A stretch of 64,000 nt of DNA from Prochlorococcus marinus subsp. marinus str. CCMP1375. GTDB taxonomy: Bacteria; Cyanobacteriota; Cyanobacteriia; PCC-6307; Cyanobiaceae. How positions within the stretch are numbered: the stretch's first letter is position 1; each line of letters begins with the position of its first letter. This document shows, piece after piece, positions 57,964 to 59,883 of this stretch. Position numbers and translations under genes: made by a program. Location of the stretch: NCBI RefSeq assembly GCF_000007925.1, contig NC_005042.1, forward strand, positions 1-64,000, written 5' to 3'. Below the pieces are notes generated by a model, which was not told where the DNA came from, did no database searches, and saw only the letters and a program-made list of their open reading frames with translations.

Positions 57964-58596
57964 TTATAATAATACTTCAACTTGGGGATAACTAAGATCC
58001 AATTTATTAGTATTATCTATAATATGATCTGAAAGTATTTTTTTACTTTCAAGTGGTAACTGCGCTTCAATTCGATATTTTGCTTGCTCTTTATTTAATC
58101 CATCTCTTTTCATTAATCGTTCATATTGCTCATCAAGTGAACAGTAGATAAGCCATACCTCACTACATAAATATGTAAAATTAGCCTCAAATAATAAGGG
58201 TATAATTAATACTATTGTAGATGATAGTTTATGTTTTTCTAATTCTTCTTCAAATCTTTTTTCAATAATAGGATGTAATAGGTTTTCCAGCCATATTCTT
58301 TCATTTTTATCGTGAAATATAATTTCACCTAATGCTGCTCTATTGATTGTTTTACTATTAGTATTTTCTTTATCTACAATAGTTCTTCCATATCGATTGA
58401 TAATTGTATCTTTTATAGTTTGATTTGCTGTTAATGCTTCCCTTGAAAACATATCTGCATCAAGGATTGGTGTATTTTTTACACTTTCTATGTATTTCCC
58501 AATAGAAGTCTTACCACTGGCAATACCGCCTGTGATTCCAATACGACGCTGGGAGCCTTTCCAACGTTTTAGAGCATTAGCCTTTGAAACTCTCAG
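57964..58596 (-). CDS. coaE: Dephospho-CoA kinase with non-canonical start
   Basis: CoaE phosphorylates dephospho-CoA in the last step of CoA synthesis. The P-loop GITGGIASGKTSIG and the following DADMFS are in frame, but the P-loop lies upstream of the first ATG (58452). From the P-loop back to the in-frame TGA at 58630-58632 there is no ATG, GTG or TTG. I set the start at a CTG (58594-58596), giving LRVSKANALKRWKGSQRRIG, which matches the length of relatives (210 residues); ATT at 58614 or CTG at 58608 are alternatives. The rest is normal: LLHPIIEKRF, IPLLFEA, RDGLNKEQAKYRIEAQLP. Confidence 0.85.
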   Translation of the reverse strand: MRVSKANALKRWKGSQRRIGITGGIASGKTSIGKYIESVKNTPILDADMFSREALTANQTIKDTIINRYGRTIVDKENTNSKTINRAALGEIIFHDKNERIWLENLLHPIIEKRFEEELEKHKLSSTIVLIIPLLFEANFTYLCSEVWLIYCSLDEQYERLMKRDGLNKEQAKYRIEAQLPLESKKILSDHIIDNTNKLDLSYPQVEVLL

Positions 58597-58641
58597 AAAA
58601 TAGCGCAGGATAATAAAGAGTTTACTTTCTCAGGCGGGGCC

Positions 58642-59883
58642 TTGAGCTTTTTTCAATCATCTAAATGGTCTTTGATTGCAGGTGGCATAACCGCGCCATC
58701 TGGATTCAAGGCGTCTGGAGTAAGTGCTGGTCTTAAGCCATCAAAGAAATTAGACCTCGCCTTATTAGTGACATCTCCGAATGCTCAATGTAGTGGAACA
58801 TTTACACAATCATTTGTTCGTGCCAAGTGTATTAATCTTTGCTTAGAACGTTTATCAAAGACTGCAGGAAAAGTTAGAGCAGTATTGGTGAATTCTGGCC
58901 ATGCCAATGCATGTACTGGAAATAGAGGCATAGATGATAGTTTGATTGCAACTAGAGCTCTTGCAGAAAAACTTGATCTTTTAGAAGAAGAGGTCTTGAT
59001 TTGTTCTACAGGTGTCATAGGTGAGCCAATTCCTATGCAAAAACTGCTTAAAGGTTTAGATCCTCTGGTGATGAATTTAAGTAAAGAAGGTGGGTCTGAT
59101 GCTGCAAAAGCAATTTTGACAACTGATCTTATAGAAAAAGAAATTGCTATTGAGGGTTACCTAGGAGATCGATTGATCCGAATTGGAGGAATGGCAAAAG
59201 GCTCAGGAATGATCCATCCAAATATGGCAACAATGCTTGGTTTCTTAACATGTGATGCTGGACTGCCCAAAGATGTTTGGGATGCAATGATTGATCGTGT
59301 TGTTGATTGTTCTTTTAATGCTATAAGTGTTGATGGTGATACAAGTACTAATGATTCTTTTTTGGCGTTTGCACAGGGAGATATTTTAGATAGTCAGCAT
59401 TTTAATGAGCTGGAAATTGGGTTGAAATTAGTTTCTACTTATCTTGCCCAGTCAATTGTTAGAGATGGTGAAGGTGCTAATTGCTTGTTTGAAGTTAAGG
59501 TAAAAGGCACTTCAAAGATTGCTCACGCACAAATCATTGCTCGACAGATTTGTAGCTCTTGTTTAGTAAAAACTGCTATCCATGGATGCGATCCTAATTG
59601 GGGCAGAATTTTATCTGCTGCAGGAAGTACAGGCATCCCATTCTCCTTGGATGAGGTTTCTATTTGGATTGGTTCATTCCAAGTCATGAGTAATGGTCAA
59701 CCCGTTGAATTTAATCGAAAGTTAGTTATTAGATATATGAAAGAAATAATAAAAGGGAATAATGCAAGTGATGAGAAACTAATTATTAGTTTGGTTGTTG
59801 GTAGATCAGAGATTGAAGCTATAGCATGGGGATGCGATTTGTCTTCAGAATATATTCACATTAATGCCGATTACACAACCTAG
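58642..59883 (+). CDS. argJ: Bifunctional glutamate N-acetyltransferase/amino-acid acetyltransferase
   Basis: ArgJ recycles acetyl from N-acetylornithine to glutamate and can also start the pathway. The 413-residue protein cleaves itself at the conserved threonine in HPNMATMLGFL near residue 195; upstream is NSGHANACTG near 92 and GMAKGSGMIHPNMATM, and the C-terminus carries GCDPNWGRILSAAG. Start is TTG 58642. With argH it covers arginine synthesis in this window. It is divergent from coaE across about 45 bp. Confidence 0.95.
   Translation: MSFFQSSKWSLIAGGITAPSGFKASGVSAGLKPSKKLDLALLVTSPNAQCSGTFTQSFVRAKCINLCLERLSKTAGKVRAVLVNSGHANACTGNRGIDDSLIATRALAEKLDLLEEEVLICSTGVIGEPIPMQKLLKGLDPLVMNLSKEGGSDAAKAILTTDLIEKEIAIEGYLGDRLIRIGGMAKGSGMIHPNMATMLGFLTCDAGLPKDVWDAMIDRVVDCSFNAISVDGDTSTNDSFLAFAQGDILDSQHFNELEIGLKLVSTYLAQSIVRDGEGANCLFEVKVKGTSKIAHAQIIARQICSSCLVKTAIHGCDPNWGRILSAAGSTGIPFSLDEVSIWIGSFQVMSNGQPVEFNRKLVIRYMKEIIKGNNASDEKLIISLVVGRSEIEAIAWGCDLSSEYIHINADYTT

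Follow-up and report, generated by a model that had tools for sequence, protein, structure and literature searches.

Where does translation of coaE, an essential gene, begin in a Prochlorococcus genome that offers no ordinary start codon ahead of the catalytic motif of the enzyme? The window (the whole stretch of DNA analysed, 64,000 nucleotides) covers bases 1-64000 of a genome that consists of one contig (1,751,080 bases), and on the minus strand of the window the coaE frame extends over 221 codons from a TGA at 58630-58632 to a TAA at 57964-57966 (Table 1). By profile, the product is a dephospho-CoA kinase with a full CoaE domain and predicted kinase activity: the search returned TIGR00152 at 172.2 bits (cut-off 65.55; profile positions 2-187 of 188) and PF01121 at 166 bits (cut-off 27), the latter being the sole PF01121 match in the genome. 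The P-loop, GITGGIASGKT, is intact and in frame with the body of the gene; codons are numbered here by counting back from its Ile codon (58540-58542 = 0). The first-pass annotation had placed this P-loop 5' of the first in-frame ATG, which is indeed at 58450-58452, and its observation that no ATG, GTG or TTG is met on reading back to the stop is borne out; the earliest in-frame GTG or TTG lies at 58000-58002.

Within the window, 52 stop-to-stop frames of at least 90 amino acids were compared, largely non-overlapping and not each confirmed as a gene. A canonical start falls within the first 39 codons in 51 of them, and coaE alone has its first one past codon index 38, at index 59. Since nearly all of these frames have such an early canonical start, and since the same lack recurs in six related genomes, the missing start is beyond chance. 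A non-canonical coaE start, as originally proposed for this locus, is almost certainly real and inherited.

Table 1. Coordinates of the coaE frame, candidate start codons and neighbouring elements in the window
Feature	Position	Strand	Basis or remark
coaE open frame including TAA	57964..58629	-	ORF reading, profile matches
ATC, codon -23, favoured start	58609..58611	-	sole NTG/ATN codon in frame in 12/12 clade genomes
CTG, codon -22, adjacent candidate start	58606..58608	-	11/12; CTC in L009
CTG, codon -18, candidate of the first-pass annotation	58594..58596	-	homologous codon TTG in 5, CTG in 2 of 12
ATT where 21 selected relatives carry ATG	58599..58601	-	out of the coaE frame here
TATCCT, possible -10 element	58607..58612	-	similar hexamer 5' of coaE in ATG-start relatives too; inferred
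TAAACT, alternative -10-like hexamer 7 nt before ATC	58619..58624	-	by eye and inferred
TTG, probable start of divergent argJ	58642..58644	+	TTG in 12/12 clade genomes, no ATG apparent

Distribution of the missing start among relatives

Counting this genome, coaE is present in 13 of 14 genomes of the genus, 349 of 400 of the family, and 57 of a set of 60. The 5' ends were read at 106 coaE loci, this genome included, and the P-loop was located by script in 104 of these. Between codons -35 and -7, an in-frame ATG is found in 86 of the 104, only GTG or TTG in 11, and none of the three in 7; the two remaining loci, L019 and L021, carry ATG. The seven loci without any canonical start (L002, which is this genome, and L005, L006, L007, L009, L010 and L012), in which no AUG, GUG or UUG yields the essential CoaE N-terminus, form one clade of 12 together with five loci (L003, L004, L008, L011 and L013) whose only canonical start is a TTG at codon -18. 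The branch separating the 12 from eight other loci has 98% ultrafast bootstrap support in a CoaE plus ArgJ tree, which was built on an untrimmed alignment with ragged ArgJ 5' ends in L015, L035, L042 and L045. L024, which the database assigns to the same genus, is not a member of the clade in this tree and has an ATG at -19.

The CoaE of other Prochlorococcus and Synechococcus resembles that of the clade in being the same enzyme, in lying divergent from argJ wherever the argJ motif was found by script, and, by eye, in the N-terminal motif RW.G.QRRIG in many of them. It differs in its start, which is ATG in 88 of the 94 loci read outside the clade, and only TTG or GTG in the other six (L015, L033, L042, L045, L074 and L104). 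In many relatives the ATG stands at codon -20, and in some at -19 or -18 (the latter in L026 and L098, for example). Lineages near the clade also lack an ATG. In three loci of one other genus (L033, L042 and L045), the old ATG reads ATA and coaE has a TTG at -10. By eye, an AGGAG overlaps or follows this ATA; next comes a short ATG/ATT frame, out of phase with coaE, whose TAA lies one base ahead of the coaE TTG, an arrangement reminiscent of coupled re-initiation. In L015, ATA likewise replaces the ATG of the relatives and the sole in-frame canonical start is a TTG at -32, which may reflect an independent loss of the ATG. A pattern search of viral contigs gave no matches, and a scan of genome contigs gave one distant locus.

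Candidate start codons and possible translation of the upstream stretch

Upstream of the P-loop, the in-frame ATN and CTG codons of this genome are ATT (58612-58614), ATC (58609-58611), CTG (58606-58608) and CTG (58594-58596). The first-pass annotation had named the outer two and omitted ATC and the adjacent CTG. It had also proposed comparing the 5' ends of related strains for a conserved CTG or ATT, and across the clade neither of its codons is constant. In-frame NTG or ATN codons between -26 and -1 occur, per 12 genomes, once at -25, in 8 at -24, 12 at -23, 11 at -22, 7 at -18 and 3 at -4. The suggested ATT at 58612-58614 is ATT in 6 of the 12 and ATC in 2, but it sits where 1-base indels immediately 5' of the ATC break the frame in L009, L010 and L011. 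By sequence comparison, ATC at -23 and CTG at -22 fit the relatives better than either of the codons first suggested.

Several observations bear on how far upstream translation extends. An RW motif at -8/-7 is invariant in all 12 genomes and, by eye, widespread in the family, and codons -8 to -1 show a coding-type pattern of changes (6/4/17 at positions 1/2/3); translation should include this motif. In L005, L006, L009, L010 and L012, no NTG or ATN codon lies 5' of the RW motif except at -25 to -22, and L009 has ATC at -23 as its only one. As ATC at -23 alone serves all 12 genomes, one start common to the whole clade would most simply be the ATC at 58609-58611. The distance from this ATC to the P-loop is identical in all 12, and the 1-base indels found just upstream in three genomes do not occur within the frame-0 stretch that follows it. 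From -23 to -1, frame 0 is open in 12/12, and stops interrupt the two alternative frames in 10/12 and 9/12. This open frame is no more than suggestive, since column shuffles give an equally open one in 1275 of 20000 cases for -23 to -9 (1088 of 20000 for -18 to -9).

The pattern of substitution differs along the stretch. Across codons -23 to -19, parsimony changes number 1/0/6 at positions 1/2/3 (binomial P 0.007), the same third-position excess being weak when sites rather than changes are counted (P 0.077), and residues there are kept in 12/12 save for one TAT to CAT. Codons -18 to -9 have 15/18/13 changes and no coding signature, as expected if these N-terminal residues are free to vary, and give no help to the claim of translation. 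Taken together, these sequence comparisons lend moderate support to translation from -23. Inspection by eye showed no Shine-Dalgarno motif ahead of the ATC.

The presumed former ATG, upstream elements and alternative starts

In the proposed history, coaE has stayed intact, and its ancestral ATG disappeared from one Prochlorococcus clade, presumably by a change to ATT together with a one-base shift of the frame. All members of the clade would now start coaE at the same near-cognate codon, most likely AUC at 58609-58611, perhaps assisted by the adjacent CUG at 58606-58608, and the transcript would begin at or 5' of 58611. A start at AUC, or at AUC and CUG together (58606-58611), is tentatively favoured, at close to an even chance. 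It is rather doubtful that an AUC start for an essential gene has become fixed throughout the ecotype clade, read from a leaderless or nearly leaderless mRNA behind the TARRCT box described below; if true, this would be a stable and long-lived switch from AUG to a codon with normally very low initiation.

The comparison underlying this history used 39 loci hand-picked from the 106, with near-duplicates and loci with ATG elsewhere left out. A -10-like hexamer 3 to 15 nt before the ATG is present in 33 of the 39 and absent from 6 (raw count). A regular expression for such a hexamer 5 nt before the ATG matched 22 of the 39, which without L078 gives the 21 selected relatives. In these the hexamer, 5 nt 5' of the ATG, is mostly TATCCT or CATCCT, its positions 1, 2 and 6 being partly conserved by construction because the relatives were chosen by that expression. 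The place of their ATG reads ATT in 12/12 clade genomes, one base off the coaE frame. A sequence like ATCCTGCG is kept outside the coaE frame in relatives with an ATG start, where its variants include TATAAT, TATACT and TATCTT; these would point to a -10 box and to an mRNA with hardly any leader before its ATG. Conservation of the ATC may thus have another cause, and its presence in 12/12 was rejected as proof on its own, similar DNA being conserved where it is non-coding. A hexamer TARRCT, read by eye 6 to 8 nt 5' of the ATC in 12/12 clade genomes, could drive an upstream coaE transcript. A scan for consensus promoters found none (0.9 expected).

If TATCCT is a -10 box, the ATC would lie outside the transcript, and CTG or TTG at -18, where present, would be the better start. 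The first-pass annotation had preferred CTG 58594-58596 as best fitting family length. The codon does match the ATG positions of the relatives (-20 in many, -19 or -18 in some), would fall inside such a transcript, and has TTG, a normal start, as its homologue in 5 of the 12 genomes and CTG in 2. On this reading an old NTG start would persist there, as TTG in the sister group and CTG here, and other lineages would manage otherwise. What tells against it is that -18, with 8 parsimony changes, varies more than any other codon from -23 to -14, being GTT in 2, GTC in 2 and GAA in 1 of the remaining clade genomes. These five need another start, so that at least two solutions are required. In addition, a Watson-Crick pair at the first base of the codon is reported to be required by IF3 (PMC10158994), and CUG does not form one. 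A CUG start at 58594-58596 is a serious competitor of the AUC start, though less likely than not. Pairing also bears on the favoured AUC start. Third-base mismatches are reported to be far less tolerated with IF3 in vitro (PMC10158994), and on our reading AUC with a CAU anticodon would be such a mismatch; this would count against AUC.

A further possibility is a start at a normally unaccepted codon on a transcript with a very short leader (for instance, the GTT at -16 or the TTT/TTC at -19), or a change of frame from the ATT at 58599-58601. The GTT at -16 is invariant in 12/12 and the ATT is equally constant where the 21 selected relatives carry ATG; however, the ATT-shifted frame meets a stop before codon -8 in 10 of the 12 genomes, and we know of no natural use of GUU or UUU as a start, making this explanation improbable. 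A sequencing error or frameshift (the alternative first raised with the annotation) or a dead coaE gene, for which nothing speaks beyond the missing ATG itself, is regarded as refuted by the relatives and is scarcely credible, as the lack is common to 7 of the 12 genomes (including two single-contig ones, this genome and G003), frame 0 is open in all 12, CoaE domain scores are far over the cut-off, changes in codons 0 to 39 are concentrated at the third position (42/45/106), and this is the only PF01121 match of the genome.

For the divergent gene argJ, every one of the 12 clade genomes offers a TTG at -99 to -101. Across the family, a TTG or GTG lies close to that position at many of the loci with a recognised argJ motif, which the script missed in a good part of the loci; both coaE and argJ may therefore have weak starts. 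Four of the 12 (L007, L009, L010 and L011) lack the longer argJ frame (AQD...). A CATG palindrome common to the two starts was considered as a general rule and rejected on the argJ TTG of the clade and on the four genomes lacking the longer frame, although argJ could start at the ATG of such a palindrome in L014, L016, L044, L051 and L099. Just after the old coaE start, at 58582-58596 on the minus strand, a near-palindromic CTTGAAAGTTTCAAAG was seen by eye, clearest in L008 and L013 and imperfect here; its core, AGTTTCAA, recurs in another reading frame in L026 and L035. The element could possibly be an operator or the -35 region of argJ. At the argJ start, a hairpin resembling a terminator, with T-rich sequence behind it (58629-58646, plus strand), is probably due to chance (1 found, 0.5 expected).

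Relation to known near-cognate starts

Gene-finding software that accepts only ATG, GTG and TTG would start coaE too late, losing the catalytic P-loop, or omit the gene. The seven genomes offer a natural case of how start codons of low efficiency become fixed in a streamlined genome, and raise the question whether initiation in Prochlorococcus is more permissive than in E. coli. A literature search, covering titles and abstract openings and hence not proof of absence, found, among the papers listed, no title on a non-AUG coaE start in cyanobacteria, and the main text of an SS120 proteome paper contains neither 'CoaE' nor 'dephospho-CoA' by term search (PMC5451487).

CUG is reported to account for 0.024% of bacterial starts with 0.86% of the efficiency of AUG (PMC11497404); among 61,358 reconstructed AUG starts, two switched to CUG and one to AUU (PMC5622118); and AUU and AUC starts in prokaryotes are acknowledged, with variable incidence (PMC13339759). 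In vitro, IF3 is said to demand Watson-Crick pairing at both of the first two positions of the codon and to tolerate third-base mismatches poorly (PMC10158994), which counts against CUG and AUC alike. Bacterial CUG starts resemble the present case in that CTG codons are among the coaE candidates, and differ in that here a clade lacks any canonical start in 7 of 12 genomes and has only TTG in the other five.

The textbook gene with an AUU start is E. coli infC. Used as a positive control for AUU starts in the genus, infC was found in ten of the 14 genomes, and in 10/10 the frame opens with ATG. On the favoured reading, coaE of the clade would resemble the E. coli gene in that an ATN near-cognate codon, conserved in relatives, starts a housekeeping gene. 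On the other hand, the rare start of infC serves autoregulation by IF3, and we know of no such loop for coaE. Near-cognate starts are thus known as a kind; a clade-wide case in an essential gene would be a further member.
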